DNA of 64,000 nucleotides from Zeimonas sediminis (GTDB taxonomy: Bacteria; Pseudomonadota; Gammaproteobacteria; Burkholderiales; Burkholderiaceae_E), in contig NZ_JAMQYE010000001.1 of the NCBI RefSeq assembly GCF_023721795.1, forward strand, positions 1,178,001-1,242,000, written 5' to 3'. The notes beneath the pieces are model-generated. The model was not told the origin of the DNA. It did no database searches and saw only the letters and a list, made by a program, of their open reading frames with translations. Position numbers and translations under genes: made by a program. The number at the start of each line of letters is the position of its first letter. Within the stretch, counting starts at the first letter, position 1. Positions 16,610 through 36,269 of this stretch are shown here, piece after piece.

Positions 16610-16639
16610 GCGCGCTCGCTCTGATGGTGGCGTGCGCCC

Positions 16640-16853
16640 GGCCCGGCGGCGGGGAAGGCGCGATCGGGACAAGTGGCTGCGCCCCTCGCCTTCGGCGAGG
16701 GGTTCCCGCGTCTGCCTCGTCCGCGCGGGGGCGCGCAGAACTCGGATCGCCTGCGGCGATCCTCAAACAGGCTGCGCGCCTTTTTCCCGCGCTCCCTTCG
16801 TCAGCACGCGGCGCGCCCCAATGTCCCGATCGCGCCTTCCCCGCCGCCGGGCC
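16640..16853. repeat. Structured intergenic repeat R1 (forward)
   Basis: Arms at 16640-16671 and 16822-16853 are a perfect 32-bp inverted repeat (begins GGCCCGGCGG, ends GATCGGGACA). The 150-bp core between them has five nested paired blocks: hairpin H1 CCCCTCGCC/GGCGAGGGG, then P4 GCGCGGG/CCCGCGC (16723-16729 with 16786-16792), P3 GGCGCGCAG/CTGCGCGCC (16730-16738 with 16772-16780) and hairpin H2 GGATCGCC/GGCGATCC. Core nearly identical to R3. Short conserved words flank the arms: GCGTGCGCC before and CTGGAGG after. Long open frames across it are artefacts of its high GC content. Confidence 0.93.
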
Positions 16854-16939
16854 TGGAGGACGCGCGGACTTCCCGGGGGGCGCGCTATCAGTGCGGCTGC
16901 CTGGAGGGTCGTTCAGCCCGCGCCCTTGTACGGACTCGA

Positions 16940-17151
16940 GGGCGGTGAGGCGGCCAGCCGGATGACGGACCTTGTGGCAAGCGGCGGGCTACCGAAGGAA
17001 GCGGCGATCAGGGCGGCCCCATGTCCGAGGCTCGCCGCAGGCGAGCCGAGTTTGGGGCCGCCCAGCCGCTGACGAGGTAGACGCCGGTACCCCTCGCCGA
17101 AGGCGAGGGGCGCAGCCACTGTCCGGCATGCGGCTGGCCGCCTCGCCGCCC
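16940..17151. repeat. Structured intergenic repeat R2 (reverse)
   Basis: Same family as R1 but inverted. Arms 16940-16971 and 17120-17151 pair at 28 of 32 positions; core 148 bp. Read on the minus strand it has H1 CCCCTCGCC/GGCGAGGGG, P5 CTACC/GGTAG, P4 AGCGGC/GCCGCT, P3 GGGCGGCCCC/GGGGCCGCCC and H2 GGCTCGCC/GGCGAGCC. The stems differ in sequence from R1 while remaining paired. Nearly identical to R4, including its arms and about 20 bp outside one arm. The 86-bp spacer from R1 (16854-16939) shows no further feature except one more CTGGAGG word. With R1 it fills the 579-bp gap between convergent genes. Confidence 0.93.
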
Positions 17152-17188
17152 GGACGCATGCCGGCAATCGAGACCCGAGCGAACGCCC

Positions 17189-17968
17189 TCAGTGAACGTG
17201 CAGCCGCGTCGTCAGCAGCGCCACGATCGCCACGCCGACCATCATCAGGGCGAACTGGACCTTCCATTCGCCGCGATGGCGCGAGTGGCGGTGCAGGTCC
17301 GGCACCAGGTCCGCCAGCGCCACGTAGATGAAGCTGGCGGCCGCCAGCACCAACACGTAGGGCAGCAGCTGCGCCGACTCGGCCAGCACGAAGTAGCCGG
17401 CCACGCCGCCGACGACCGCGGCCATGCCGCTGATCACGTTGAACAGCAGCGCGCGCTTGCGGGTGTAGCCGGCGTTCAGCAGCACGATGAAGTCGCCGAT
17501 CTCCTGCGGGATCTCGTGCGCGGCGATCGCCAGTGCGGTCAGCCAGCCGAGGTTGGCGTCGACCATGAAGGCCGCCGCGATCAGCACGCCGTCGGCGAAG
17601 TTGTGGATCGAGTCGCCGACAAGGATCAGCGTGCCGCCCGGCCCGGCGGCCTCGCGGTCGTGGCCGTGATGGTGGTGGTGACCGTCGCCCTCGTGGTGAT
17701 GGCTGTGCCGCAGGATCTCCAGCTTCTCGAGCAGGAAGAAGGCGATCAGGCCGATCAGCAGCGTCCAGGCGAGCGCGTGCAGGTCGGCGCCCGACTCGAA
17801 GGCCTCGGGGATCACGTGCAGGATCGAGGTGGCGAGCAGCAGGCCGGCCGACAGGCTGACCAGCTGCCGCACCATGCCGGCGAGCAGCGTCAGCGAGAGC
17901 GCGGCGGCGGCGAGCACGCTCGCGGCGCCGCCGAGCACCGTCGCGACGACGATCATTGCGAGGATCAC
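17189..17968 (-). CDS. ZIP family divalent metal transporter
   Basis: Membrane protein of 259 residues with eight predicted helices. A His-rich cytoplasmic loop lies between helices 3 and 4 (HSHHHEGDGHHHHHGHD, about residues 88-104). Helix 4 carries SIHNFADGVLI and helix 5 HEIPQEIGDFIVLLNAG; the His, Asn, Asp and Glu residues there form the ZIP binuclear metal site. Zinc, perhaps with iron or manganese, is the likely cargo. The longest frame begins with GTG at 17968; an ATG four codons in is possible. Its 3' end meets the R1-R2 repeats; it is divergent from the GST gene across 160 bp that I could not assign a promoter in. Confidence 0.92.
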   Translation of the reverse strand: MILAMIVVATVLGGAASVLAAAALSLTLLAGMVRQLVSLSAGLLLATSILHVIPEAFESGADLHALAWTLLIGLIAFFLLEKLEILRHSHHHEGDGHHHHHGHDREAAGPGGTLILVGDSIHNFADGVLIAAAFMVDANLGWLTALAIAAHEIPQEIGDFIVLLNAGYTRKRALLFNVISGMAAVVGGVAGYFVLAESAQLLPYVLVLAAASFIYVALADLVPDLHRHSRHRGEWKVQFALMMVGVAIVALLTTRLHVH

Positions 17969-18128
17969 GAGAAGAATCCCGGGGGAACGCGGTCAGGAGC
18001 CCGTCGTGCGGCGACGGACCTGTGTCCGGCTCGAGTCGCGAGGACCGCGTGAGCGTCGAGCCAGATGCGACAGTGTAACATCAAGGACCGGCCTTCCCGG
18101 ACCCGCAACATCAACAACGGAGAACCCG

Positions 18129-18755
18129 ATGACGATCGAGTTGTATGCCTGGAACACCCCGAACGGCCGCAAGATCAGCGTCGCGCTGGAAGAGATGGGC
18201 CTCCCCTATCACGTGACCCCGATCGACATCACGAAAGGCGCGCAGTTCGAGCCGCAGTTCCTGAAGATCAGCCCGAACAACAAGATCCCGGCGATCGTCG
18301 ATCCCGACGGCCCGGGCGGCAAGGCGGTCAGCGTCTTCGAGTCCGGCGCGATCCTGCTCTACCTGGCCGAGAAGACCGGCAAGTTCCTTCCGAAGGACCT
18401 TGCCGCGCGGATCCCGGTCTACGAGTGGCTGATGTTCCAGATGGGCGGCTTCGGGCCGATCCCGGGCCAGGTCCATCACTTCCTGGGCCTGCAGAGCGAG
18501 GAGGACCGTCGCTACGGCCTCGAGCGCTACACCAAGGAGAACCGTCGCCTGTACGGCGTGATGGACCGTCGGCTCGAGGGCCGCGACTGGTTCGCCGGCG
18601 ACCTCTCGATCGCCGACTTCGCGATCGTCGGCTGGGTGTGGCGGCACGAGCGGCACAAGGTCGACCTGGCCGACTTTCCGAACGTCAAGCGCTGGTTCGA
18701 GGCGATGATGGCGCGGCCGGGCGTGAAGCGCGGCTTCGAGGTGCCGCTCAGCTAA
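18129..18755 (+). CDS. Glutathione S-transferase family protein
   Basis: Protein of 208 residues with a thioredoxin-like N-terminal half (IELYAWNTPNGRKISVALEE) containing the ISPNNKIPAIVD cis-Pro segment and the FESGAILLYLAE glutathione site, and a helical C-terminal half. TPNGRK at the N-terminus resembles the YghU/YfcG subfamily, whose members act as disulfide reductases with glutathione rather than classical transferases. A GGAG ribosome site precedes the ATG. Divergent from the ZIP gene and convergent with polA; R3-R4 lie at its 3' end, so the ZIP-GST pair is flanked on both sides by repeat pairs. Confidence 0.9.
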   Translation: MTIELYAWNTPNGRKISVALEEMGLPYHVTPIDITKGAQFEPQFLKISPNNKIPAIVDPDGPGGKAVSVFESGAILLYLAEKTGKFLPKDLAARIPVYEWLMFQMGGFGPIPGQVHHFLGLQSEEDRRYGLERYTKENRRLYGVMDRRLEGRDWFAGDLSIADFAIVGWVWRHERHKVDLADFPNVKRWFEAMMARPGVKRGFEVPLS

Positions 18756-18793
18756 TCCCGGCGACTGCTCCTCTTCCTCTCTTTGCGTGCGCC

Positions 18794-19007
18794 GGGCGGC
18801 GAGCGGGGCAGCTGCGACGCCGGACAGTGGCTGCGCCCCTCGCCTGCGGCGAGGGGTTCCCGCGTCTGCCTCGTCCGCGCGGGGGCGCGCAGAACTCGGA
18901 TCGCCTGCGGCGATCCTCAAACAGGCTGCGCGCCTTTTCCCGCGCTCCCTTCGTCAGCACGCGGCTTGCCACAAGGTCCGGCGTCGCAGCTGCCCCGCTC
19001 GCCGCCC
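18794..19007. repeat. Structured intergenic repeat R3 (forward)
   Basis: Arms 18794-18826 and 18975-19007 pair at 32 of 33 positions (arm begins GGGCGGCGAGCGGGGCAGC). The arm sequence differs from R1, but the 148-bp core is almost identical to R1: H1 CCCCTCGCC/GGCGAGGGG, P4 GCGCGGG/CCCGCGC, P3 GGCGCGCAG/CTGCGCGCC and H2 GGATCGCC/GGCGATCC. The word GCGTGCGCC lies just before the left arm, as in R1. So the core was copied while the arms became locus-specific. It begins 38 bp after the GST stop. Confidence 0.93.
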
Positions 19008-19108
19008 TCGACACGACGTTCTGCATCGGGCCGGGCCGCCCACCCGGTTCGCGCACCCGGCAGGCCCGCCCGGCGGCTCGCTCGTCCCGAGCCCTTGCAC
19101 GAACTCGA

Positions 19109-19320
19109 GGGCGGTGAGGCGGCCAGCCGCATGCCGGACCTTGTGGCAAGCGGCGGGCTACCGAAGGAAGCGGCGATCAGGGCGGCCCCATGTCTGAGGC
19201 TCGCCTGCGGCGAGCCGAGTTTGGGGCCGCCCCGCCGCTGACGAGGTAGACGCCGGCACCCCTCGCCGCAGGCGAGGGGCGCAGCCACTGTCCGGCATGC
19301 GGCTGGCCGCCTCGCCGCCC
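19109..19320. repeat. Structured intergenic repeat R4 (reverse)
   Basis: Arms 19109-19140 and 19289-19320 pair at 30 of 32 positions; core 148 bp, inverted relative to R3. Almost identical to R2 in both core and arms; similarity even continues about 20 bp outside the left arm (CCCTTGnACGnACTCGAG). The loop of H2 is inverted relative to R2 (GCA versus TGC on the same strand), so the two are not merely copies. The 101-bp spacer from R3 (19008-19108) holds no recognised feature. With R3 it fills the 591-bp gap between the convergent GST and polA genes. Confidence 0.93.
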
Positions 19321-19346
19321 GGGCGGACGAACCGCCGGGCGCGCGC

Positions 19347-22190
19347 TCAGTGCGCCTGCTCCCAGTTCGCGCCGACGCCCACCTCGACTTCGAGCGGCAC
19401 GTCGAGCTTGGCGACGCCGGTCATCAGCCCGGGCAACCGCTCTCGCACGAGGTCGAGCTCGCCGTCCGGCACCTCGAGCACCAGCTCGTCGTGCACCTGC
19501 ATGATCAGCTTGCTCTGCAGGCCCTCGTCGTCGAGCCAGCGCTGCACGGCGATCATCGCCATCTTGATCAGGTCGGCGGCGGTGCCCTGCATCGGCGCGT
19601 TGATCGCGGCGCGTTCGGCGGCCGAGCGGCGCGGGCCGTTGGGGCTGTTGATCTCGGCCAGCCACAGGCGCCGGCCGAACACGGTTTCCACGTAGCCCTG
19701 CTCGTGGGCCAGCGCGCGGGTGCGGTCCATGTACTCGCGCACGCCGGGATAGCGGGCGAAGTAGCGGTCGATCCAGTTCTTCGCGGCGTCGCGTTCGATG
19801 CCCAGGTTCTGGGCCAGGCCGAAGGCGCTCATGCCGTAGATCAGGCCGAAGTTGATCACCTTGGCGTAGCGGCGCTGCTCGGCGCTCACGTCGGCCGGGG
19901 CCACGCCGAAGACTTCCGACGCGGTCGCGCGGTGCACGTCCATGCCCTCGGCGAAGGCGCGGCGCAGGCCCGCGTCGGCCGAGATGTGGGCCATGATCCG
20001 CAGTTCGATCTGCGAATAGTCGGCCGACACGATCTTCGCGCCGGCCGGCGCGACGAAGGCTTCGCGGATGCGCCGGCCTTCCGGCGTGCGCACCGGGATG
20101 TTCTGCAGGTTCGGGTCGCTCGACGCGAGCCGCCCGGTGACCGCGACCGCCTGCGAGTAGCTGGTGTGCACCCGGCCGGTCTTCGGGTCGACCATCTGCG
20201 GCAGCTTGTCGGTGTAGGTGCTCTTGAGCTTGGCGAGCGCCCGCCAGTCGAGCAGCAGCCGCGGCAGCGGGTAGTCCTCGGCGAGCTTCGCGAGCACCTC
20301 TTCGTCGGTGGACGGCGCGCCGCTGGCGGTCTTCTTGACCACCGGCAGCTTCAGGTTGCCGAACAGGATCTCGCCGAGCTGCTTGGGCGAGTTCAGGTTG
20401 AAGGGCTGGCCCGCGACCTCGTGGGCCTGCTTCTCGAGCGCCATCAGCTTGCGGCCCAGCTCGTCGGACTGCTTCGCGAGCGCCTGCACGTCGACCAGCA
20501 CGCCGTTGCGCTCGACCCGCTGCAGGATCACCGACACCGGCACCTCGATGTCGCGATAGATCGCGAGCAGGCGCTCGTCCTCGGCGATGCGCGGATACAG
20601 CGTGCGGTGCAGGTGCAGCGTGACGTCGGCGTCCTCGGCCGCGTACTCGGTGGCCCGCTCCACCGCCACCTGCTCGAAGCCGATCCGGCTCGCGCCCTTG
20701 CCGGTGACCTCGTCGTAGCGGATCGTGCGCCGCTGCAGGTGACGCTCGGCCAGCGAGTCCATGTCGTGCGAGCGATGGGCCTCGAGCACGTAGCTCTGCA
20801 GCAGCGTGTCGTGCTCGATGCCGGCCAGCCTCACGCCGTGGTTCTCGAGCACGTGGGCGTCGTACTTCAGGTTCTGGCCGACCTTGTGGTGCTTCGGGCT
20901 CTCGAGCCAGGCGCGCAGCTTGCCCAGCACGTGGTCGCGGCCGAGCTGCCCGGGCGCGCCGGCGTAGTCGTGCGCCACCGGCACGTAGCAGGCCTGCCAG
21001 GGCTCGACCGACAGCGACAGGCCGACGAGCTCGGCGCGCATCGGGTCGAGCGACGTGGTCTCGGTGTCGAAGGCCACCAGCTCGGCCTTGCCGATCCGGG
21101 CGATCCAGGCGTCGAGCTGCTCGTCGGTCAGCACGGTTTCGTAGACCGGATGGCCCGGCTGCTGCGCCGTCTCGTCCGAGCCCGTAGCCCGACCGGCCGC
21201 GGCCTCGCCCGTGCCGGCCGCGCCGCCGTCTGCCGGCCCGCCGGTCGGACCGCCGGCCGCCGGCCCCGCCCCGAACACCCTGGCGGGCTGCCTGGGCGCC
21301 TCGCCCTCGAGCTCGCGCAGCCAGGTGCGGAAGCCGCAGCGGGTGTAGAGCTCGCGCAGGCGCTCGTCGTCGTCGTCCGCCAGCACGAGCCCCGACTCGA
21401 ACTCGGCGAATTCCTCGGGAAGCTCGCAGTCGGTCTTGACGGTGACCAGCTTGCGCGCGGTCGGCAGCCACTCGAGCGACTGCCGCAGGTTCTCGCCGAC
21501 CACGCCCTTGATCTCGTCGGCGTGCGCCAGGACCTCGTCGAGCGAGCCGTACTGCTCGAGCCACTTGACCGCGGTCTTGGGGCCGCACTTGGGCACGCCG
21601 GGCACGTTGTCCACGGTGTCTCCGACCAGCGTGAGCCAGTCGACGATCCGCTCGGGCGGCACGCCGAACTTCTCGACGACCGCGTCGCGATCGAGCGGCT
21701 TCGGCGGCCCGCTGTCGCGGGTCATCGTGTCGACCAGAACGACCTTGTCGTCGACCAGCTGTGCCAGGTCCTTGTCGCCGGTGGCGACCACGGTCTTCAT
21801 GCCGCGCTCGCTCGCCTGCCGGGCCAGCGTGCCGATCACGTCGTCGGCCTCGATGCCCTCGACCATGACCAGCGGCCAGCCGAGCGCGCGCACCAGCTCG
21901 TGGATCACCGGGATCTGCTTGCGCAGGTCGTCGGGCATCGCCTTGCGCGTGGCCTTGTACTCGGGATACCAGTCGTCGCGGAAGGTGGGACCCGGCGCGT
22001 CGAAGACCACGGCGCCCATCCGGGCGCCGCCGCCCAATTTGCCGTCGTTGCGCAGACGCCGTAGCATCGCGACCATGCCGTAGACGGCGCCGGTCGGCTC
22101 GCCTTCGCCGTTCCGCAGGTCCGGCAGCGCGTGGAACGCGCGATAGAGAAAACTCGAGCCGTCGACCAGCAGAAGCGTTTCGTCAGACAT
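19347..22190 (-). CDS. polA: DNA polymerase I
   Basis: Three-domain polymerase of 947 residues, slightly longer than E. coli's 928. The N-terminal 5'-3' exonuclease begins LLLVDGSSFLYRAFHALPDL. An Ala/Gly-rich spacer of about 40 residues separates it from the 3'-5' exonuclease, whose motifs are intact: FDTETTSLD, NLKYD and the Tyr/Asp of YAAEDADV, so proofreading should work. Polymerase motifs A (ADYSQIELR), B (KVINFGLIYG) and C (QVHDELVLE) are all present. Start at 22190 agrees with homology. That ATG shares the tetranucleotide CATG with the start of the divergent LOG-family gene, so each promoter must lie inside the neighbour. Confidence 0.97.
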   Translation of the reverse strand: MSDETLLLVDGSSFLYRAFHALPDLRNGEGEPTGAVYGMVAMLRRLRNDGKLGGGARMGAVVFDAPGPTFRDDWYPEYKATRKAMPDDLRKQIPVIHELVRALGWPLVMVEGIEADDVIGTLARQASERGMKTVVATGDKDLAQLVDDKVVLVDTMTRDSGPPKPLDRDAVVEKFGVPPERIVDWLTLVGDTVDNVPGVPKCGPKTAVKWLEQYGSLDEVLAHADEIKGVVGENLRQSLEWLPTARKLVTVKTDCELPEEFAEFESGLVLADDDDERLRELYTRCGFRTWLRELEGEAPRQPARVFGAGPAAGGPTGGPADGGAAGTGEAAAGRATGSDETAQQPGHPVYETVLTDEQLDAWIARIGKAELVAFDTETTSLDPMRAELVGLSLSVEPWQACYVPVAHDYAGAPGQLGRDHVLGKLRAWLESPKHHKVGQNLKYDAHVLENHGVRLAGIEHDTLLQSYVLEAHRSHDMDSLAERHLQRRTIRYDEVTGKGASRIGFEQVAVERATEYAAEDADVTLHLHRTLYPRIAEDERLLAIYRDIEVPVSVILQRVERNGVLVDVQALAKQSDELGRKLMALEKQAHEVAGQPFNLNSPKQLGEILFGNLKLPVVKKTASGAPSTDEEVLAKLAEDYPLPRLLLDWRALAKLKSTYTDKLPQMVDPKTGRVHTSYSQAVAVTGRLASSDPNLQNIPVRTPEGRRIREAFVAPAGAKIVSADYSQIELRIMAHISADAGLRRAFAEGMDVHRATASEVFGVAPADVSAEQRRYAKVINFGLIYGMSAFGLAQNLGIERDAAKNWIDRYFARYPGVREYMDRTRALAHEQGYVETVFGRRLWLAEINSPNGPRRSAAERAAINAPMQGTAADLIKMAMIAVQRWLDDEGLQSKLIMQVHDELVLEVPDGELDLVRERLPGLMTGVAKLDVPLEVEVGVGANWEQAH

Positions 22191-22923
22191 GTCCAGCAGC
22201 AAGCAGGTGCCGCAGTTGCGAGCGATCACGGACCAGGATCGCTCGACCTCGCTGAAAGCGCGCGAGTCCTGGCACATCCTGGGAATTATCTCAGAGTTCA
22301 TCGAGGCGACCGAGCGGTTGGCCGAGGTCCGCCCCGCGGTCTCGATCTTCGGCAGCGCGCGCGTGCGGCCCGGCCACCGCTGGTACGAGTTCACCGTCGA
22401 CCTGGCCCGCCAGCTCTCCGACGCCGGCTTCGCGGTGATCTCCGGCGGCGGCCCCGGCATCATGGAGGCGGCCAACCGGGGCGCGTTCGAAGGACGCTCG
22501 GCATCGATCGGCCTGAACATCCAGCTGCCGCACGAGCAGCTCGGCAACGCTTACCAGGACATCTCGCTCGGCTTTCGCCACTTCTTCGCGCGCAAGGTCG
22601 CGTTCGCCAAGTACGCGACCGCCTTCGTCGCGGTGCCGGGCGGCTTCGGCACCCTCGACGAGCTGCTGGAGGTGCTCACGCTGATCCAGACGCGGATGGG
22701 CCGGCGGATCCCGGTGATCCTGGTCGACTCGCGCTTCTGGAAGGGCCTGCTCGACTGGATGCGCGAGCAGCAGGTCGCCAACGGCCTGATCTCGGCCGAG
22801 GACCTCGACCTGATCCAGGTGGTCGACCAGCCGGCCGAGGCGGTCGAGGCGATCTTCGACTTCTACCAGTCGCGCGGCTTCGTGCCGACGGCCGACGAGA
22901 GCGACAAGCTGCTGTACCTCTGA
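22189..22923 (+). CDS. LOG family protein (TIGR00730), Rossmann fold
   Basis: Cytosolic protein of 244 residues. It has the LOG family signatures SGGGPGIMEAANRGA and PGGFGTLDELLEVLT, where the PGGxGTxxE motif holds the catalytic Arg/Glu site for cleaving nucleoside monophosphates to base and ribose phosphate (cytokinin-activating or 5'-monophosphate phosphoribohydrolase). A preceding helical leader (SKQVPQLRAITDQDRSTSLKAR) is shared by proteobacterial members. Start codon ATG 22189 overlaps the polA start codon in opposite orientation. The next gene, thrB, begins after one intervening base, so they form an operon. Confidence 0.9.
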   Translation: MSSSKQVPQLRAITDQDRSTSLKARESWHILGIISEFIEATERLAEVRPAVSIFGSARVRPGHRWYEFTVDLARQLSDAGFAVISGGGPGIMEAANRGAFEGRSASIGLNIQLPHEQLGNAYQDISLGFRHFFARKVAFAKYATAFVAVPGGFGTLDELLEVLTLIQTRMGRRIPVILVDSRFWKGLLDWMREQQVANGLISAEDLDLIQVVDQPAEAVEAIFDFYQSRGFVPTADESDKLLYL

Positions 22924-22924
22924 C

Positions 22925-23896
22925 ATGGCCGTCTTCACGACCGTTTCGCGCGACGAGCTCGCGCGCTGGCTGCAATCGTTCGACCTCGGCGAGCTGCTCG
23001 GCTTCGAGGGCATCGCCTCGGGCATCGAGAACACGAACTACTTCGTCGACCTGGCCCGCGGCCGCTTCGTGCTGACGCTGTTCGAGCGGCTCTCCCCGCA
23101 GGAGCTGCCGTTCTACCTGGAGCTGATGAAGCACCTCGCCTCGCACGACATCGCCTGCCCGGACCCGGTCGCCGACCGGAAGGGCCGGCTCCTGTCGACG
23201 CTCAAGGGGAAGCCGGCTGCGCTGGTGACCCGGCTGGCTGGCCGCGCGCGAATGGATCCGGGGCCGGCGCACTGCGCGCTGGTCGGCGCGGCGCTCGCGC
23301 GAATGCACCTGGCCGCGGTCGACTACCCGGGCGCGCTGCCCAACCTGCGCGGCCTGCCGTGGTGGATCGAGACGACGCCCAAGGTGCTGCCCTTCCTGTC
23401 CGACGCGCAGGCGGCGCTGCTGCGCGACGAGCTCGCCACCCAGCAGCGCTTCGCGGCCGGCCCGGTCCACGCGGCCCTGCCCCGCAGCGCGGTGCACGCC
23501 GACCTGTTTCGCGACAACGTGCTGTTCGACGAAACCGCCGGCGGCTCCCCCCGGCTGGGCGGCGTCATCGACTTCTACTTCGCCGGCGTCGACACCTGGC
23601 TCTTCGACCTGGCGGTCACGGTCAACGACTGGTGCATCGTCGACGAGGACGGCCGCTTCGACCCGCCGCGGCTGGCCGCCCTGCTCGACGCCTACCGGGC
23701 GGTGCGCCGGCCCACCGATGCCGAGGCCGAGGCCTGGCCGACGATGCTGCGCGCCGCCGCGCTGCGCTTCTGGCTGTCGCGACTGTTCGACCTCCACCTG
23801 CCCAGGCCGGCCGAGATGGTCACGCCGAAGGACCCGACCGAGTTCGAGCGTATATTGTCGGCTCGCCGCGCGGACCCGGCAGTCCCGCTCCGCTGA
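22925..23896 (+). CDS. thrB: Homoserine kinase (ThrB type II, aminoglycoside phosphotransferase fold)
   Basis: Kinase of 323 residues phosphorylating L-homoserine in threonine synthesis. This is the form found in beta- and some other proteobacteria, built on the choline/aminoglycoside kinase fold and unrelated to the GHMP enzyme of E. coli. Motifs: GIENTNYFVD near the N-terminus, catalytic loop HADLFRDNVLF and the metal-binding segment GVIDFYFAGVD. Length is full for the family. One base separates it from the LOG gene stop, so they are cotranscribed. No hom or thrC gene is in the window. Confidence 0.93.
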   Translation: MAVFTTVSRDELARWLQSFDLGELLGFEGIASGIENTNYFVDLARGRFVLTLFERLSPQELPFYLELMKHLASHDIACPDPVADRKGRLLSTLKGKPAALVTRLAGRARMDPGPAHCALVGAALARMHLAAVDYPGALPNLRGLPWWIETTPKVLPFLSDAQAALLRDELATQQRFAAGPVHAALPRSAVHADLFRDNVLFDETAGGSPRLGGVIDFYFAGVDTWLFDLAVTVNDWCIVDEDGRFDPPRLAALLDAYRAVRRPTDAEAEAWPTMLRAAALRFWLSRLFDLHLPRPAEMVTPKDPTEFERILSARRADPAVPLR

Positions 23897-23924
23897 TCCG
23901 GCGCCACACCGCACTCCTCGTTCG

Positions 23925-24713: not shown

Positions 24714-24743
24714 ACCGCACGGGCCGTGCGCACGACCTTCCTG

Positions 24744-24866
24744 GAACGCGTGAAGGAATCGTAGCGAGCGGCCCGAGGTCGCGCCGAGAAGCGCAGCCGT
24801 ACGGAGGAGTACGGCGAGCATCGCAGGTGCGAGACCGGGCCGCGCAGTAGATTCCTTCGCGCGTTC
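24744..24866. repeat. Inverted-arm structured repeat, second core type
   Basis: Arms 24744-24760 and 24850-24866 are a 17-bp inverted repeat with one mismatch (GAACGCGtGAAGGAATC). The 89-bp core (24761-24849) is itself a long imperfect palindrome: outer block CGGCCCG / CGGGCCG and apical GCCGTAC / GTACGGC with a 6-nt loop. The core has no resemblance to R1-R6, but the design is the same: locus-specific arms around a structured core between convergent genes. The right arm abuts the uvrD stop codon. It probably doubles as a bidirectional terminator. I recall similar cores in other Burkholderiales, unverified. Confidence 0.82.
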
Positions 24867-27308: not shown

Positions 27309-27343
27309 CGGCGCGTCGGCCCTCGGGGCTCAGGGGGCCAAAA

Positions 27344-27359
27344 CTGTGATTTTACACAG
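27344..27359 (-). promoter_or_regulatory. LexA (SOS) box over the uvrD -10 region
   Basis: On the coding strand this reads CTGTGTAAAATCACAG, a full match to CTGT-N8-ACAG, the LexA operator of enteric and other proteobacteria. TAAAAT inside it (27349-27354 forward) is a fair -10 box, so LexA binding would block transcription. Spacing to the uvrD start is 35 nt. uvrD is a known SOS gene in E. coli, and this is direct sequence evidence that it is here too. No good -35 was found. Confidence 0.85.
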
Positions 27360-27440
27360 TGCCGCGCCGGCCGACCGGCCTGCGAAGCCCGACCGCATGC
27401 GCCGCAACGCGGCGCACGGCGGAATGCGCAGCGCCCGGAC

Positions 27441-27908: not shown

Positions 27909-28063
27909 GCTGCACGATCTCCCTGCTGGAAGGTCCGATTTTAACAAATCGCTTTGAGGCAACATTTCTGACCGGACTGCAAAGGTTTAAGCTGGGCGTT
28001 TCGGCGACGATTCCGGCGCCGCCGCGCCCGGCAGGGCCCGGGCCGATCCGCAGGCCACCGACC

Positions 28064-29275
28064 ATGACCTCGCTGCTGCTCAACATCGCCCACGCCCTCG
28101 ATCACCTGGTGCTGCTGATCTTCGCCACGGCGGTGGGCGCGATCGCGGCCGATTTCGGCGTCGGGCGCTGGGAAGACCTGATGCCCTACACGGCCGGCGC
28201 CTTCGTGATGTTCGGCCTGGGCTCGGTGCCCTCGGGTCGGCTCGGCGACCTGTGGGGGCGCCGCTCGATGATGCTGGTGTTCTTCTTCGGCATCGGTGCC
28301 GCCACGCTGCTGGTGGCCGCCACGCAGAATCCGTGGCAGATGGCGGCCGCGCTCGCGCTGATGGGCGCGTTCGCGTCGATCTACCACCCGGTCGGCATCC
28401 CGATGCTGGTGCAGGGCGCCACGCGGCCCGGCCGAACGATCGGCGTCAACGGGCTGGCCGGCAACCTCGGGATCGCGCTGGCCGCGATCTCCACCGGACT
28501 GCTCGTGCAGTTCGCCGGCTGGCGGGCCGCCTTCGTGGTGCCCGGCGTCGTCGCGATCGCCTGCGGCCTGCTGTTCATGAAGGTGGCCCCGGCCGAGACC
28601 GAGTCGCCGGCCCGGCGCGCGGGCAAGGCGCTGGACATCTCGGCGCGCGACCGCCAGCGGGCCTTCGTCGTGATGACGCTGACCGCGGTCACCGGCGGCC
28701 TGATCTTCAACTTCACCACCAACGGCAACGGCGAGCTGCTGAAGTCGCGCCTGCCGCTGCTTCTCGAGCAGCCGGCGCTGATGGGGGCGCTGCTGGCCGG
28801 CGTGTACGGCATCGCCTCGCTCGCCCAGGTGGTGGTGGGCCGGCTGATCGACCGGGTGCCGATGAAGACGCTGATGCTCGCGATCATGGCGATGCAGCCG
28901 GTGCTGTTCGGCCTGGCCGCGGCCAGCCAGGGCTGGGCCTTCTACGCGGTGATGATCGTGTTCATGATCTTCGTTTTCGGCGCCATCCCCTTCACCGATG
29001 CGCTGATCGTGCGCTTCGTCGACGACCGGATGCGCTCCCGGGTCACCGGCATGCGGCTTGCGGTGTCCTTCGGGGTCAGTTCGCTGGCGGTCTGGCTGCT
29101 GGGCCCGCTGGTCAAGGCTTCGGGCTTCACGACCCTGCTGCTGATGCTGGCCGGGATCTCGGCGCTCGCCACGCTCTTCGCGGCGTGGCTTCCCGCCCAG
29201 CCGGCCCCGGTTCCGGCCCCCCTCCCGGCGTCCGAGCCGGCCGCCGCCTCGGGCCCGGCGCCGGCCCCTCGCTGA
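28064..29275 (+). CDS. MFS transporter
   Basis: Twelve-helix transporter of 403 residues. The loop between helices 2 and 3 is SGRLGDLWGRRSMMLVFF, a good MFS motif A, and the equivalent loop of the second half is GRLIDRVPMKTLM. Helix 4-5 segment GAFASIYHPVGIPMLV and the loop VNGLAGNLGIALA resemble the Fsr/YfnC-like fosmidomycin-resistance group, where the HPVG motif in helix 4 is typical. The final 25 residues are a Pro/Ala-rich tail. Substrate unknown. It is divergent from the OmpA-like gene and the SDR gene follows 163 bp later. Confidence 0.85.
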   Translation: MTSLLLNIAHALDHLVLLIFATAVGAIAADFGVGRWEDLMPYTAGAFVMFGLGSVPSGRLGDLWGRRSMMLVFFFGIGAATLLVAATQNPWQMAAALALMGAFASIYHPVGIPMLVQGATRPGRTIGVNGLAGNLGIALAAISTGLLVQFAGWRAAFVVPGVVAIACGLLFMKVAPAETESPARRAGKALDISARDRQRAFVVMTLTAVTGGLIFNFTTNGNGELLKSRLPLLLEQPALMGALLAGVYGIASLAQVVVGRLIDRVPMKTLMLAIMAMQPVLFGLAAASQGWAFYAVMIVFMIFVFGAIPFTDALIVRFVDDRMRSRVTGMRLAVSFGVSSLAVWLLGPLVKASGFTTLLLMLAGISALATLFAAWLPAQPAPVPAPLPASEPAAASGPAPAPR

Positions 29276-29438
29276 GGGCCCCTGCGGGGCTTCGAGCGAC
29301 CCCGGCCGGAAGCCGGACGGCACAGGCAACGGGAAGGTGGCCTTTCCGGAACGCCGGCCCGGGCCGCCGGGCCGCACCCGGTTCATGCTTTCGCTTGCCC
29401 CTGGAAACGTCCCCGATCTGACGGAATCGAGACCGATC

Positions 29439-30251
29439 ATGACCAGCCCAACGAACGAAGCCGGCTCCCGCGCCGGCGGCCCCTCGCCCAATGCCCTGTT
29501 CGACCTGAGCGGCCGCCGCGCCCTGGTGACCGGCTCGAGCCGCGGCATCGGCCTCGCGCTGGCCGAGGCGCTGGGCCGGGCGGGCGCCGCCGTGGTCCTG
29601 AACGGACGCGACCCGGCCACGCTCGCCGAAGCGCGCGAGCGGCTCGCGGCGGCAGGCATCGCCGCAGGCGTCGCGGCCTTCGACGTGACCGACGAAGCCG
29701 CGGTGATCGCCGCCGTCGACCGCATCGAGCGCGAGGAGGGGCCGATCGACATCCTGGTCAACAACACCGGCATCCAGATCCGCGCGCCGCTCGACCAATT
29801 CGACACGGCGGACTGGCGAAGGATCGTCGACACCAACCTGACCAGCGTCTTCCTGGTCAGCAAGGCGGTCGTGCAGGGGATGATCGCGCGACGGCGAGGC
29901 AAGATCGTCAACATCCTGTCGGTCAACGCCGAGGCCGCGCGCGCCTCGATCGCACCCTACTCGGCGACCAAGGGCGCGCTGCGGATGCTCACCAAGGGCA
30001 TGTGCGTCGACTGGGCGCGCCACGGCATCCAGGTAAACGGCCTGGCCCCCGGCTACTTCGACACCGAGCTGACCCGGCCGCTGGTGGCCGACCCCGACTT
30101 CACCGCCTGGATCGAGCGGCGCGTTCCGGCAGGGCGCTGGGGCCGGGTCGAGGAACTCGGCGGCGCGGCCGTCTTCCTGGCCTCGCAGGCGTCGGACTTC
30201 GTGAACGGCCACGTGCTGTTCGTGGACGGCGGCATGACCGCCGGCCTCTGA
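29439..30251 (+). CDS. SDR family oxidoreductase, gluconate 5-dehydrogenase-like
   Basis: Short-chain dehydrogenase of 270 residues. It has LFDLSGRRALVTGSSRGIGLA (TGSSRGIG loop near residue 30), ILVNNTGIQ, the catalytic Ser in NILSVN and YSATK. The N-terminal LFDLSG and IQIRAPLDQF segments resemble the IdnO/gluconate 5-dehydrogenase and 2-deoxy-gluconate dehydrogenase branch, so a sugar acid is a plausible substrate. Start at ATG 29439 is chosen as the last methionine before homology begins; upstream starts give only random sequence. The EamA transporter gene follows 31 nt later and may form an operon with it. Confidence 0.88.
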   Translation: MTSPTNEAGSRAGGPSPNALFDLSGRRALVTGSSRGIGLALAEALGRAGAAVVLNGRDPATLAEARERLAAAGIAAGVAAFDVTDEAAVIAAVDRIEREEGPIDILVNNTGIQIRAPLDQFDTADWRRIVDTNLTSVFLVSKAVVQGMIARRRGKIVNILSVNAEAARASIAPYSATKGALRMLTKGMCVDWARHGIQVNGLAPGYFDTELTRPLVADPDFTAWIERRVPAGRWGRVEELGGAAVFLASQASDFVNGHVLFVDGGMTAGL

Positions 30252-30282
30252 AGCTCGACCGACGCCCCCCGAAGCGCGCCCC

Positions 30283-31209
30283 ATGACCGACCCTGCCGCC
30301 ATCGCCGCCGCCCACGACCGGCGCGACCGGATCGCGCTGGCGGTGTCGCTCGGCCTGATCGTGGTCTGGGGAATCAACTTCTCGGTGCAGAAGGCGGTGT
30401 TCGAGGTGCTGTCCCCGACCGGCTTCCTGTTCGTCCGCTACCTGATCATGCCCGCCTGCGCGCTGGCGATCCTGGTCCACGCCTACGGCCTGCGCTTTCC
30501 GCGGGTGCCGGCCGAGGACCTGTGGGCGCTCGCCAGGCTCGGCTTCGTCGGGCACGCGCTGCACGTGGGCATGGTCACGCACGGCATCCACTGGTCGACC
30601 GCCTTTTCCAGCTCGCTGATCCTTTCCTGCGGGCCGATCTTCACGCTGCTGATCCTGCGCTGGGTCGGCCTCGAGCAGCTCACCCGCGCGCAGGTGGGCG
30701 GCGTGGCGCTGGCGCTGGTCGGCGTGCTGGTCTTCCTGTCCGACAAGCTGCTGGTGGGCCGCTGGCAGGCCACCGGCGGCGACCTGTTCCTGCTGGTGGC
30801 CGCCAGCTTCTTCTCCTGGTACACGGTGGCGGCCAAGCCGCTGATCCAGCGGCACGGCGGCATCACGGTGATGGGCTACGCGACGCTGTTCGGAAGCGTT
30901 CCGATCGTGCTGGCATCGCTGCCGGTGGGCCTCGCCACCGACTGGACCGCGGTGCCGCTGCCGATCTGGGCCGGGCTGCTGTGGGCCGTGGTGATCTCGG
31001 CCTTCGCCGGCTGGCTGGTGTGGGGCTGGGTCAACGCGGTGCGCGGCGTGGCCCGGACCGCACCGCTGATGTACCTGATGCCGCCGGTCGCCGGCCTGGT
31101 GGCATGGCTGGTCACCGACGAGCGTTTCACCGTGGTGAAGCTGGCGGGCGCGGCGATCACGCTCGGCGGCGTCGCCCTGGCGCAGTTCGCGGGACGCCAG
31201 CGCAACTGA
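30283..31209 (+). CDS. EamA/DMT family transporter
   Basis: Ten-helix exporter of 308 residues with two EamA repeats. First repeat: GLIVVWGINFSVQKAVFEVLSP with the loop FVRYLIMP; second: LVAASFFSWYTVAAKPLIQ and the GWVNAVRGVARTAPLMYLMPPVAGLVAWLV stretch with the conserved late-helix Pro. A charged N-terminus (AAAHDRRDR) is cytosolic. Substrate unknown. It is cotranscribed with the SDR gene upstream by position. Its 3' end faces a MarR gene, with a hairpin at 31253-31281 between them. Confidence 0.9.
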   Translation: MTDPAAIAAAHDRRDRIALAVSLGLIVVWGINFSVQKAVFEVLSPTGFLFVRYLIMPACALAILVHAYGLRFPRVPAEDLWALARLGFVGHALHVGMVTHGIHWSTAFSSSLILSCGPIFTLLILRWVGLEQLTRAQVGGVALALVGVLVFLSDKLLVGRWQATGGDLFLLVAASFFSWYTVAAKPLIQRHGGITVMGYATLFGSVPIVLASLPVGLATDWTAVPLPIWAGLLWAVVISAFAGWLVWGWVNAVRGVARTAPLMYLMPPVAGLVAWLVTDERFTVVKLAGAAITLGGVALAQFAGRQRN

Positions 31210-31252
31210 GCCGGCGCCTCGGCCCGGCCGTCGCCCCCCTCCTGCGGGCCGC

Positions 31253-31281
31253 GACCGGCGCGACTCGCGAGCGGGCCGGTC
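31253..31281. terminator. Hairpin between convergent genes
   Basis: GACCGGC (31253-31259) pairs with GCCGGTC (31275-31281), with a further CGCG/CGCG stem in the 15-nt loop. It lies between the EamA and MarR stops in a 76-bp gap. No T-run on either side, so termination efficiency is uncertain. Confidence 0.45.
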
Positions 31282-31285
31282 GGGT

Positions 31286-31813
31286 TCAGAGATCGGCGAG
31301 CGGCGTGTTGGCCGCCTCGGGCTCGACCCCGCTCATGCCGGCGACCACATCCTTGAGCAAGTCGTTCAGCAGCGCGAGCCTCTCCGGATCGAGGCGGCCC
31401 AGCGCGTCGGGCAGCAAGCCGCTGAGCGGCTTCGGCGCGCGCTCCATCACGCCCCGTGCGGCATCCGTCGGGTGCAGCAGGACGATCCGGTGGTCGAAGC
31501 GATCCCGCTCGCGGCGGATCAGACCCTGTCGGGACAATTGCTCGATCAGGTTGCTGGCGGTGGACTGGTGGACCGCCATCGACTGCGCGAGGTCCTTCAC
31601 CTTGATGCCCGGCGCGCCGACGATGACCGACAGCGCCCACAGCTGCGAGCCCGACACGCCGCAGCGCCGCTCGACCTCGTGGAAGTGCTGGCGCACCGAG
31701 CGGAAGATCACCCGGAAGCGCTTCAGCGCTTCGACTGCCTCGGGCGAGGGTCCGGCGGCCACGGCCGGGGCATCGGGCAGCGCAGCGGACGCTGCGGAGG
31801 CAGAAGTTGTCAT
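31286..31813 (-). CDS. MarR family transcriptional regulator
   Basis: Winged-helix regulator of 175 residues. The DNA-binding centre is GAPGIKVKDLAQSMAVHQSTASNLIEQLSRQGLI with helix-turn-helix near residues 75-110, followed by the wing RERDRFDHRIVLLHPT. N-terminal Ala-rich leader of about 25 residues is disordered. No metal- or drug-binding residues are obvious; the SGSQLW motif in the N-terminal helix is typical. It is divergent from purU across 150 bp, so it may control purU or itself, but I could not find a convincing palindrome in that gap. Confidence 0.88.
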   Translation of the reverse strand: MTTSASAASAALPDAPAVAAGPSPEAVEALKRFRVIFRSVRQHFHEVERRCGVSGSQLWALSVIVGAPGIKVKDLAQSMAVHQSTASNLIEQLSRQGLIRRERDRFDHRIVLLHPTDAARGVMERAPKPLSGLLPDALGRLDPERLALLNDLLKDVVAGMSGVEPEAANTPLADL

Positions 31814-31963
31814 CGGGGCGGCGCGCGGGAAATCGGGTTGGGGGCAATGCTTTCAACGCTCGCCGCAGCGCCCGGTTGACTCGAAGGGATACACTTGCGC
31901 CCGCAATCCTGCCCGGACCCGGATTCCGGCCTGCCCTCTTGACCCGCGGAACCTGGCAACGAG

Positions 31964-32803
31964 ATGAACGACGGCCACATCCTCACGCTCTCCTGTCCCG
32001 ACCGCCCGGGCATCGTCCACGCGGTTTCCGGCTTCCTGCTCGAGCAGGGCGGGAACATCCTCGAAGCCGGCCAGTTCGACGACCGGGACACCGGCCTGTT
32101 CTTCATGCGCGTGCACTTCAGTGCACCCCAGGCCGACTTCGCCGCAGCCTTCGCGCCGGTGGCCGAGCGCTTCGGCATGCGCTTTCGCTTCGCCGACGCC
32201 GCGCGGCCGATGCCGACGCTGATCCTGGTGTCGAAGCTGGGCCACTGCCTGAACGACCTGCTGTTCCGCTGGCGCTCGGGCCTGCTGCCGATCGACATCA
32301 GGGCGATCGTCTCGAACCACCGCGATTTCTACCAGCTGGCCGCGTCCTACGACATTCCCTTCCACCACGTGCCGGTCACGCCGGCCGGCAAGGCGCACGC
32401 CGAGGCGCGGCTGATGGAGATCGCCGAGTGCGAGGGCGTCGAGCTGGTCGTGCTGGCCCGCTACATGCAGATCCTGTCGGCGGACCTGTGCCGAAGGCTC
32501 GAAGGCCGGGCGATCAACATCCACCACTCGTTCCTGCCGAGCTTCAAGGGCGCGCGGCCCTACCAGCAGGCGCACGACCGCGGCGTGAAACTGATCGGCG
32601 CGACCGCACACTACGTGACGACCGACCTCGACGAGGGGCCGATCATCGAGCAGGACGTCGCCCGGGTCGACCACGCGATGGACGTGCCGACGCTGACCGC
32701 GATCGGCCGGGACGTCGAGAGCGTCGTGCTGGCGCGCGCGCTGAAATGGCACGCCGAGCACCGGATCGTGCTGAACGGCTCGAAGACCGTCGTGTTCCGC
32801 TGA
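31964..32803 (+). CDS. purU: Formyltetrahydrofolate deformylase
   Basis: Cytosolic enzyme of 279 residues that hydrolyses 10-formyl-THF to formate and THF, balancing one-carbon and glycine pools. An N-terminal ACT regulatory domain ([21 protein letters not shown], about residues 5-80) precedes a formyltransferase-like domain. The catalytic region [20 protein letters not shown] and [20 protein letters not shown] hold the Asn, His and Asp of the formyl site. In E. coli PurU is activated by methionine and inhibited by glycine through the ACT domain. Full length for the family. Divergent from a MarR gene. Confidence 0.95.
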
Positions 32804-32844
32804 GCCGCGGGCGGCGCCGGCGCCCCCCCGGGAGATCCCCGGCC

Positions 32845-32872
32845 GCATCGGGCGCGGCCTCGCGCCGGATGC
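32845..32872. terminator. GC-rich hairpin after purU
   Basis: GCATC + GGCGCG pairs with CGCGCC + GATGC around a 4-nt loop, with one G-G mismatch. It lies 42 bp after the purU stop and 83 bp before hmgA. No T-run follows, so it is a candidate terminator or 3'-end stabiliser only. Confidence 0.4.
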
Positions 32873-32954
32873 GAGAATGGCGCCATCGTCCGGCCAGGGC
32901 TCGTTCGCGAACGCCCGCCGGGGTTCCGCCTTGCGAAGACGATCGGAGGATGAC

Positions 32955-34331
32955 ATGGGCGCCACAGACACCGCGGCCCGCGGCAGCCTGCTCGGACAGG
33001 ATCCCGCAGGCACGCTCGCCTACCAGTCGGGATTCGGCAACGAGTTCGCCAGCGAAGCGCTGCCGGGCGCCTTGCCGGTCGGGCGCAACTCGCCGCAGCG
33101 CTGTCCCTACGGCCTGTACGCCGAGCAGCTCTCGGGCACGGCCTTCACCGCGCCGCGCGGCGCGAACCGGCGCAGCTGGCTCTACCGGATGCGGCCGGCA
33201 GCCGTGCACCGGCCATTCGCCCGGATCGACGACGGGCTGCTGACCAGCGACTTCGCCGGCCTGCCCACGCCGCCCAACCAGCTGCGCTGGGACCCGCTCG
33301 CGCTGCCGCCGGCAGGCGAACCGGTCGACTTCGTGCGCGGGCTTGCCACGATGGGCGGCAACGGCGATCCGGCGACCATGAGCGGCTGCGCGATCCACCT
33401 TTATCGGGCGAACGCCTCGATGCGCGACCGCTTCTTCTACGACGCCGACGGCGAGTTGCTGATCGTGCCGCAGCTCGGCCGGCTGCTGCTGGTCACCGAG
33501 CTCGGGCGGCTCGAGGTGGCGCCGCAGGAGATCGCGGTGATCCCGCGCGGCATCCGCTTCCGGGTCGAGCTGCCGGACCTGAAGTCGGAAGGCGGCACGC
33601 TCGACGGCGCGCGCGGCTACGTCTGCGAGAACTTCGGCGCGCCGTTCCGGCTGCCCGACCTCGGACCGATCGGCTCGAACGGCCTTGCCAATCCCCGAGA
33701 CTTCCTCGCGCCGGTCGCCTGGTACGAGGAACGCGAGGGCGACTTCGAGCTGGTCGCCAAGTTTCTCGGGCACCTGTGGGCGGCGCCGATCGGGCACTCG
33801 CCGATCGACGTGGTGGCCTGGCACGGCAATCACGTGCCGTACAAGTACGACCTGCGCCGCTTCAACGCGATCGGCTCGATCAGCTACGACCACCCCGACC
33901 CGTCGATCTTCCTGGTCCTGCAGTCGGTTTCCGACACGCCGGGCGTCGACACGATCGACTTCGTGATCTTCCCGCCGCGCATCCTGGCCATGGAGAACAC
34001 CTTCCGGCCGCCCTGGTTCCACCGCAACATTGCCAGCGAGTTCATGGGCCTGGTGCACGGCGCCTACGACGCCAAGCAGGGCGGCTTCGTTCCGGGCGGC
34101 GCGAGCCTGCACAACTGCATGACCGGCCACGGCCCCGACGCCGAGACCTTCGCGAAGGCCACGGCCGCCGACACCAGCCAGCCGCACTACATCCGCGACA
34201 CGATGGCCTTCATGTTCGAGACGCGCCTGCCGATCAGGCCGACGCGCTTCGCGCTCGAAGCCGCCGAGCTGCAACGCGATTACTTCGAGTGCTGGCAGGG
34301 ACTCGACAAGCACTTCAACGGAAAGCCATGA
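32955..34331 (+). CDS. hmgA: Homogentisate 1,2-dioxygenase
   Basis: Non-haem iron ring-cleaving dioxygenase of 458 residues converting homogentisate to maleylacetoacetate in tyrosine and phenylalanine breakdown. Recognisable segments: [26 protein letters not shown] at the N-terminus, the beta-barrel region [11 protein letters not shown], and the iron-ligand regions [27 protein letters not shown] and [14 protein letters not shown] in the C-terminal half. The ATG at 32955 has GGAGG 5 nt upstream; an earlier in-frame ATG (32877) is not needed for homology. The stop overlaps fahA as ATGA. A regulatory IclR gene lies just beyond fahA. Confidence 0.97.
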
Positions 34332-35641
34332 TCAACGAAACCCACGACATCGGCCTGCGCAGCTGGATCGCCTCGGCCAACACGCCGGGCACCGACTTCC
34401 CGATCCAGAACCTGCCCTTCGCGGTCTTCCGCCGGCGCGACAGCGCCGAGGCGTGGCGCGGCGGCGTGGCGATCGGCGACCAGGTGCTCGACCTGGCCGC
34501 CGCGCACGCCGCCGGCGCCTTCTCCGGCGAGGCGGCGGTCGCGGCCTCGCACGCCGCCGGCCCCTCGCTGAACGGCCTGATGGCCCTCGGCCCCCGCTAC
34601 TGGTCGGCGCTGCGGCTCGCGCTGTCGCGGGTCCTGCGCCAGGGCGCGGCCGAAGCGGGCACGCTGGCGCGCTGCCTGGTGCCGCAGCGCGAGGCCGAGT
34701 ACGCGGTGCCCGCGAAGATCGGCGACTACACCGACTTCTACGCCTCGGTGCACCACGCCACGAACATCGGCCGGCTGTTCCGCCCGGACAACCCGCTGAT
34801 GCCGAACTTCAAGTGGATCCCGATCGGCTATCACGGCCGGGTCTCGTCGATCGGCGTCAGCGGCCAGCGCTTTCGCCGGCCGAAGGGGCAGATCATGCCG
34901 CCCGGGCAGAGCTCGCCGATGTTCTCGGCCTGCCGTCGCCTCGACTACGAGCTCGAGGTCGGCGTGTGGATCGGCCCGGGCAATCCGCTGGGCGAGCCGA
35001 TCCCGATCGACCGGGTCGACGAGCACGTCTTCGGGCTGTGCCTGCTCAACGACTGGTCGGCGCGCGACATCCAGGCCTGGGAATACCAGCCACTCGGCCC
35101 CTTCCTGGCCAAGAACTTCGCGACCACGATCTCGCCGTGGATCGTCACGCTCGAGGCGCTTGCCCCCTACCGCACCGAGTGGACCCGGCCGGCCGAGGAC
35201 CCGCAGCCGCTCGCCTACCTCGACGGCGAAGGCGTCCGCCGCCACGGCGCGATCGACATGCAGCTCGAGGCCTGGCTGGAGAGCGCGAAGATGCGCGCCG
35301 ACGGCAGCGGCGCCTGCCGGCTGTCGCACACCAGCCTGCGTCACTCGTACTGGACGGTCGGCCAGATGGTCGCCCACCACTCGATCGGCGGCTGCAACCT
35401 GCAGCCCGGCGACCTGCTCGGCACCGGCACCCAGTCCGGCCCGTCGCTGGACGAGGCCGGCGCGCTGATCGAGCTGTCGGCGGGCGGAAAGAATCCGGTG
35501 AGCCTGGCCAACGGCGAGAACCGCACCTTCCTGGAAGACGGCGATGCGGTGATCCTGCGCGGGTGGTGCGAGCGGGAGGGGTTCGCGAGGATAGGGTTCG
35601 GCGAGTGCCGCGGCGAGGTGCTCCCGGCCAGCGGGGACTGA
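34328..35641 (+). CDS. fahA: Fumarylacetoacetase
   Basis: Final enzyme of tyrosine catabolism, cleaving fumarylacetoacetate to fumarate and acetoacetate, 437 residues. Shows N-terminal [22 protein letters not shown] and the catalytic metal site [20 protein letters not shown], then PVGYHGR-like [23 protein letters not shown] and [21 protein letters not shown], with the Asp/Glu calcium ligands and the catalytic His present. The isomerase that links the two steps (maleylacetoacetate isomerase, hmgC) is not next to them. Start ATG overlaps the hmgA stop, so the two are one coupled operon. Ends just before R5. Confidence 0.97.
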
Positions 35642-35697
35642 CGCTCGGGCTTGCCGCTCTTGTCGGGCGCCGTCGTTCGGTATCGATTCGCCCGGCC

Positions 35698-35903
35698 GGC
35701 GCTCGGGGGGATTCCGTTTCCGGACATACGGCTGCGCCCCTCGCCTGCGGCGAGGGGTTCCGGCGTCTACCTCGTCGCCGGCGGGTCGGAGCTCAACTCG
35801 CGAGCCCTGCGGGCTCGCTCAGACAGAGCTCCTCCCTTTTCGCCGGCTCCTTCGGTAGCCCGCCGCTTGCCCAATGTCCGGAAACGGAATCCCCCCGAAC
35901 GCC
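35698..35903. repeat. Structured intergenic repeat R5 (forward)
   Basis: Arms 35698-35726 and 35875-35903 pair at 28 of 29 positions (arm contains GGGGGGATTCCGTTTCCGG); core 148 bp. H1 as in R3 (CCCCTCGCC/GGCGAGGGG), P5 CTACC/GGTAG, P4 GCCGGCG/CGCCGGC, P3 GGAGCTC/GAGCTCC and H2 GCGAGCCC/GGGCTCGC. The stem sequences differ from R1-R4 but stay paired. The word CTGGAGG lies 4 bp after the right arm, as at R1. Located 56 bp after the fahA stop; with R6 it fills the 673-bp convergent gap to the IclR gene. The 158-bp spacer to R6 (35904-36061) holds nothing I recognise. Confidence 0.92.
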
Positions 35904-36061
35904 ACCCTGGAGGGTCGTGGCATGCGCGGCGCCAGACACGATCGGCACACCGGGCGTCAGCGCGCCCGCGTCCTAACGCAGCCGTAATGCTTCCGCATGC
36001 CGAAGCCCAAGGGCGCGAGCGAGGCGAGCGCCCTCGCGCTCCCGCACACACGCGACATCCA

Positions 36062-36269
36062 GGTCCGGCGGGGGCTCGGCTTCGCTGCGGACAGTGTGCC
36101 AGCCGAGCGCTTCCGAAGGGAGCGGCGATCAGCGAGGGCGCTGTCTGAGCGAGCCCGCAGGGCTCGCGAGTTGCGCCCGAGCCGCCGCGTACGAGGAAGG
36201 CGAGGGAAGCCCCCGCGCAGCGGGGGCCGCAGCACCCTGTCCGCAGCGAAGCCGAGCCCCCGCCGGACC
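36062..36269. repeat. Structured intergenic repeat R6 (reverse, divergent core)
   Basis: Arms 36062-36093 and 36238-36269 are a perfect 32-bp inverted repeat (begins GGTCCGGCGGGGGCTCGGC). Core 144 bp, the most divergent copy. Read on the minus strand: H1 GCCCCCGC/GCGGGGGC, P5 TTCC/GGAA, P4 GCGGCG/CGCCGC, P3 GGGCGC/GCGCCC and H2 GCGAGCCC/GGGCTCGC. Every stem except H2 has a new sequence compared with R5 while pairing is kept. GCGTGCGCCCGG lies at the outer side of one arm (36268-36279, minus strand), shared with R1 and R3. Confidence 0.9.

Follow-up and report, generated by a model that had tools for sequence, protein, structure and literature searches.

The 64,000-nt stretch of the Zeimonas sediminis genome analysed here (contig NZ_JAMQYE010000001.1, positions 1,178,001 to 1,242,000; hereafter the window) contains three pairs of long palindromic repeats, each lying between convergent genes. 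An earlier reading of the sequence alone, the original prediction, had described six structured copies, R1 to R6, of one architecture at these sites. Both the architecture and the positions were confirmed, and the stem sequences given for H2, P3 and P4 are present in the six-copy alignment. Each copy is a half-element that consists of outer arms, the hairpin H1, the stems P5, P4 and P3, and the hairpin H2. R1 (16632..16862, plus strand; H2 motif 16739-16769) lies 3′ of the plus-strand gene 16022-16609 and R2 (16934..17157, minus strand; H2 motif 17022-17052, sense loop TGC) 3′ of the minus-strand gene 17189-17968; together they form composite I (16632-17157). Composite II (18788-19326) combines R3 (18788..19012, plus strand; H2 motif 18893-18923), which follows the plus-strand gene 18129-18755, with R4 (19103..19326, minus strand; H2 motif 19191-19221, sense loop GCA), which follows the minus-strand gene 19347-22463. 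In composite III (35688-36278), R5 (35688..35915, plus strand; H2 motif 35795-35825) is located 3′ of the plus-strand gene 34328-35641 and R6 (36056..36278, minus strand; H2 motif 36142-36172) 3′ of the minus-strand gene 36315-37169. The strands thus alternate from R1 to R6, and every composite is an inverted pair that separates two convergent genes. These three gaps measure 579, 591 and 673 nt; no such repeat is present in the five further convergent gaps of the window that reach 40 nt or more (75-350 nt). The outer arms vary among R1-R6, except that R2 and R4 have common arms. The arrangement as inverted pairs between convergent genes, the copy-specific outer arms and a motif on the opposite strand, described below, are new relative to the original prediction. 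The genes adjoining the composites look ordinary by eye, one of them resembling DNA polymerase I; no family search was made. No tRNA was detected in the window.

The fold of the half-elements is very stable. R3 and R6, the two copies that were folded singly, yielded z-scores of -11.1 and -9.8 relative to 200 dinucleotide shuffles. RNAalifold predicted 77 pairs from the six copies, 35 of them with a change on both sides in at least one copy. The analysis was extended to 34 cores of the R1-R6 layout (the A/B set), of which 19 are from Z. sediminis itself (G000) and 14 and 1 from two other genomes, G007 (same genus) and G006. In this set 97.6% of the cells were paired and 156 cells had changed on both sides, compared with 44.0 (standard deviation 5.8) for 500 shuffles and no more than 15 when the partner was slid by 1-3 columns. 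The covariation of the stems is therefore real and exceeds both controls, by which the phylogenetic background is only approximated. The conclusion drawn from it in the original prediction, that compensatory change reveals selection for a folded RNA, did not survive, because G-U intermediates are missing and because symmetric transversions and indels, an inverted loop and inverted copies of host flanks were found.

The missing intermediates are most evident in a comparison with RNase P RNA, for which 30 genomes of Burkholderiales were scored in the identical way (mean identity 0.741 vs 0.746). The 16 varied pairs of the core comprised 515 Watson-Crick cells, no G-U, no A-C and 11 other combinations (526 cells), whereas the 34 varied pairs of RNase P comprised 938 Watson-Crick, 53 G-U, 4 A-C and 15 others (1010 cells); the G-U deficit of the core relative to RNase P is significant at p 2e-10. 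Core pairs alternate among G-C, A-T, T-A and C-G without intermediates. RNase P varies little inside the genus (111 Watson-Crick, 4 G-U, 0 A-C and 5 other cells at the 10 pairs that vary among 12 sequences), so that the control relies on wider relatives. The H2 mismatches in the genus, counted in copies at least 70% paired, amounted to 1 G-U, 3 A-C and 7 others. In the outer arms of 73 of 90 copies, 2062 Watson-Crick pairs were accompanied by 9 G-U, 31 A-C and 32 others; this count left out 17 weak copies (15 from G027, a genome of another family, 1 from G020 and 1 from G007) and included L062+, L107+ and L112+, whose arms had been picked off the usual place and which were excluded from the flank test described below.

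A comparison of orthologous copies revealed how the arms change. Twelve orthologue pairs were aligned, two of them with wrongly placed arms. Substitutions, transversions included, occur matched on both sides of the arms, as do indels; the clearest symmetric changes are those of L050/L112, L054/L099, L055/L100 and L064/L109. Arm complementarity amounts to 97% within a copy and to 66% when the arm of one orthologue is set against that of the other, with cores that are 84-94% identical (10 pairs). R2 and R4 agree in 215 of 225 columns and have an identical H2 stem, and their loops are mutually inverted (TGC/GCA). Moreover, host sequence beyond the arms is repeated in inverted form on the far side of the element. 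At R5, the host flank 35638..35672 (plus strand), 3′ of the plus-strand gene and including its TGA stop codon, recurs inverted at 35928..35960 (minus strand), beyond the arms, with a score of 32, where the 99th percentile of mismatched pairs is 25. Fifteen of 55 copies scored at or above that percentile, with about 0.6 expected by chance. At the R5 locus and at L054/L099, the flank scores were 32/55 and 29/51 within the own species and 15-16, equal to background, across species; at a third locus the contrast was weaker (17 and 39 vs 16 and 25). At two loci the flank copies thus match only their own species, which indicates that copying continued past the species split. Since wobble pairs are lacking while transversions and indels are symmetric, a loop is inverted and flanks are copied, the covariation cannot serve as proof of selection on RNA. 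In the available text of PMC7202029, quasipalindromes in E. coli are described as being perfected by template switching, and that of PMC8794818 proposes that template switching creates and maintains RNA stems. On balance, and with considerable reserve, we take R1-R6 to be a non-autonomous palindromic element, similar to bacterial interspersed mosaic elements (BIMEs) and miniature inverted-repeat transposable elements (MITEs), whose arms are kept paired through fold-back copying of DNA.

Several observations weigh against this explanation. The complementarity within copies arises partly by construction, because the arms were picked on it. R2 and R4 provide the sole exact loop inversion among the copies with a perfect stem, and 40 of the 55 copies do not exhibit a flank copy at the 99th percentile. 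The states of the core are common to copies by descent or by conversion, such that the cells are not independent. In G027 the arms are largely alike between copies, and the strict arm count had to exclude 15 of its 22 copies as weak; hypervariable, perfect arms are therefore a trait of certain lineages. Of the 19 own loci, at least 14 align with copy-bearing G007 loci, some of which bear the opposite half, so that many positions are old in the genus, which speaks against recent movement there. The search of the copy-rich genomes with PF01797 revealed no mobilising enzyme, and no target duplication was established at the composite ends, which were not systematically analysed. Finally, template switching is a process that we infer from its products; no event was directly observed.

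Which strand folds bears on the nature of the folded molecule. Conserved internal loops that read TC/TC in the sense strand, defined by the upstream gene, read GA/GA in the antisense strand, and one of them has a covarying closing pair. GA opposite GA is the tandem sheared G-A motif of nucleic-acid structures. The conserved words, such as CTCGTC, which the original prediction had regarded as unpaired, are better read on the antisense strand as tandem G-A motifs. Under RNA parameters the antisense strand is also the better folder in 57 of 59 cores, and under DNA parameters in 54 of 59; for whole copies the figures are 76 and 79 of 90, respectively. Of 59 H2 loops in the genus, 38 are TGC or TTC, and these read GCA or GAA in antisense. 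These data favour the antisense strand as the one that folds and accommodate DNA as well as RNA. Single-stranded DNA, which had also been suggested as the folded form, may apply to the core, although the folded strand would then be the complement of the analysed one.

The same features can be claimed for an antisense non-coding RNA whose transcription runs from the composite spacer to the outside and which folds via the tandem G-A motifs, in which case the covariation would reflect selection on the RNA. In its favour are the antisense GA/GA loops with their covarying closing pair, the superior antisense folding of the cores as RNA and the arm mismatches, among which A-C, equivalent to G-U in the antisense strand, outnumbers G-U (31 vs 9, p 0.0007). 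In addition, the Bordetella repeat BRE, whose sequence was not compared, overlaps small RNAs according to the available text of PMC3110155. However, at the varied core pairs G-U is zero on both strands, symmetric indels and transversions and copies of host flanks are not accounted for, and no sigma-70-like promoter occurs in 16600-19400 or 35620-36330. We therefore regard an antisense RNA as unlikely.

The location of the element might instead point to a structured 3′ untranslated region of the upstream mRNA, formed by the sense strand and acting as a terminator, a protector of the 3′ end or a folded RNA. In G000, 27 of 30 copies follow a gene on their own strand, with the H2 motif 105-197 nt past its stop codon, and the folds, as in R3 and R6, are very stable; 21 of the 27 face a convergent gene. 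In G007, 23 of 28 copies are 3′ of stop codons. Yet nothing resembling an intrinsic terminator, a GC-rich stem with a T run, occurs in 16600-19400 or 35620-36330, five of the eight convergent gaps that are 40 nt or longer manage without the element in the window, and the same gene is found in congeners without it. Furthermore, the sense strand is the one that folds worse, and G-U is rare in the sense arms. A sense-strand function of this kind is accordingly quite improbable. Also disfavoured is an insertion of the element into pre-existing terminator hairpins, in which the arms would be those of the host terminator; the best of the other inverted repeats in the gaps of the window score 8-16, and, by eye, a GCGCCCGG-like word adjoins the 5′ arm on its outer side in many A/B copies, with CCTGGAKG or CCTCGA beyond the 3′ arm.

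The three exceptions to the stop-codon rule in G000 are L047+ and L061-, which face a gene start, and L063-, which is unclear and lies inside a predicted frame. Both L047+ and L061- form the second half of a composite that separates tandem genes, an indication that gain occurs by whole composites. At the L061 locus, with its tandem genes, G000 carries the composite, G007 one half, and nine readable congener loci neither; two further congener loci are cut by contig ends. Behind the first gene of the corresponding G007 locus, L136, only a bare hairpin (about 14 bp) occupies the place of the second half, and the outer arm ends and the spacer are the same as in G000. The bare hairpin is likely the result of a deletion of the core, a loss being preferred because the spacer is common to both species. 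A copy at the R5 locus is also found in G007 and is absent at six more distant loci, some of which are possibly not orthologues; a seventh is cut. Single halves seem to be oppositely oriented in the two species at L060/L111 and L065/L114, perhaps because a composite can retain the one half or the other. The 1.7-kb stretch between R2 and R3, with two divergent genes, is inverted in G007 (L052:5182-6899 vs L097:4515-6231), as if recombination had occurred between inverted copies. In G027, nine near-identical composites occupy separate places, one of them without most of the spacer. The spacers at L077, L079-L083, L085 and L086 contain a variable number of CAGCAGGT repeats, and at the same loci arm or end pieces are tandemly repeated outside some copies.

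The family extends well beyond the window. The H2-motif pattern AACTCG-hairpin-CTCRRACA matched the Z. sediminis genome 35 times and in a reversed control not once; 30 of the matches were examined, and the other five look non-palindromic. A covariance model built from the 34 A/B cores recovered 27 copies in G000, 24 in G007 and 10 in G006, and thus copies beyond the 19 and 14 that G000 and G007 had contributed to the model. It had matches in 14 of 41 genomes, all but one of which (13) belong to the genus of Z. sediminis. A stricter pattern matched 167 of 300 genomes of the order, where a count of one or two does not rise above the control, and clear multi-copy sets occur in several families, e.g. 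in G081, G122, G226, G238, G300 and G304. At 20 loci from seven other genomes, the conserved words flank lineage-specific hairpins that are mostly nested within further stems; the words therefore extend across families and the stem sequences do not. In L048, L059, L104 and L105 the core is of yet another subtype, whose long H2 contains many CGCT and GCGT words. Copies from G226, G122, G315 and G116 (L115-L118, L127-L133) have a gene-proximal AT-rich hairpin, CTTTCTTT...AAAGAAAG, often followed by GGCGACCC. In viral contigs there were at least 120 matches; of 80 that were read, one (L239:10241-10268, IMGVR_UViG_2829208299) combines a stem of at least 5 bp with the fold of the family. A query with R3 gave no match in plasmids. 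The supposition that the family is not a described one has held so far: the window contains no Rfam 15 match at gathering score, and seven loci from relatives gave five hits, all below that score. In the literature, covered mostly outside subscription journals, the only possible kin encountered was BRE.

How the fold-back element could work may be pictured as follows. The usual unit in the genus comprises two inverted halves and a short spacer and resides past stop codons, mostly between convergent genes; in each half a hairpin-forming core is enclosed by the long outer arms. During replication or repair, a strand would fold back at the hairpin and the polymerase would copy one arm onto the other, occasionally extending into the host flank. 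As a consequence of arm being copied onto arm, the arm sequence drifts while the pairing remains near perfect. The words of the core, which form tandem G-A motifs on the strand antisense to the upstream gene, would be kept for a separate reason, probably because that strand folds or is recognised through them. The element probably spreads as a non-autonomous repeat with the help of a mobilising enzyme. A more far-reaching proposal, which we consider speculative and rather doubtful, is a replication-coupled mobile element distributed across the order, of which the antisense DNA hairpin with its tandem G-A pairs is recognised and whose life cycle includes fold-back synthesis; such an element, served by an enzyme, would use the surrounding host sequence to rewrite its own arms and sometimes to copy the end of the neighbouring gene. 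A search of nine genomes with the PF04986 profile gave no matches, and its control was likewise without a match.

Among known systems, the repetitive extragenic palindromic (REP) sequences and BIMEs of enterobacteria are palindromic, multi-copy and intergenic, lie near 3′ ends and often form inverted pairs separated by a spacer. The present family resembles them as inverted palindrome pairs in intergenic 3′ regions and differs in its halves of about 220 nt, its nested stems and long copy-specific arms, and the lack of a PF01797 match in G000. That R1-R6 are REP/BIME elements moved by a RAYT transposase, as their BIME-like inverted pairs at 3′ ends between genes might imply, is very improbable, since PF01797 has no match in the copy-rich G000, G004, G007 and G027, while the same search succeeds elsewhere (in 5 of 14 control genomes and, among the relatives, in 14 of 41), and since the large, branched halves are unlike short single REP hairpins. 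MITEs such as NEMIS/Correia and ERIC are non-coding and dispersed and have inverted ends. The present family has the same properties and, like them, was gained or lost between species, as at L061, but each of its ends is a branched palindrome, solo halves seemingly occur, and, with only PF01797 and PF04986 searched and the ends not systematically analysed, a partner transposase and a target duplication were not established. The attC sites of integrons, in which the bottom (antisense) strand is folded, lie behind genes and vary in sequence while the hairpin is kept. These traits recur here, including the antisense strand as the better folder; by contrast, the present copies form convergent inverted pairs, and neither cassette arrays nor an RYYYAAC/GTTRRRY core pair was noticed, although no aimed search was made. 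BRE consists of copies of about 90 bp in head-to-tail tandems of variable number, some of them intragenic, as far as the available text describes it (Hot et al. 2011, PMC3110155). On that description, to which the comparison is confined, BRE and the present family are both GC-rich, multi-copy and mostly intergenic, belong to the same bacterial class and share features of mobile elements, but the copies in the window are inverted pairs and not head-to-tail. The template switching at quasipalindromes reported in the available text of PMC7202029 and PMC8794818 likewise yields, in one event, paired changes of several bases, corrected frameshifts and inverted loops; it concerns reporters and RNA genes, as opposed to a dispersed DNA repeat in which copying seemingly proceeds into host flanks.

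Covariation is the standard proof of functional RNA structure, and here is a natural family in which it is better explained by fold-back copying of DNA. In practice, copying can be told from selection on RNA in that wobble pairs are lacking, indels are symmetric, loops are inverted and host flanks are copied. The conserved G-A motif, as judged from the sequence, hints at a binding partner for the element. The family constitutes a natural system in which template switching in bacteria can be measured.

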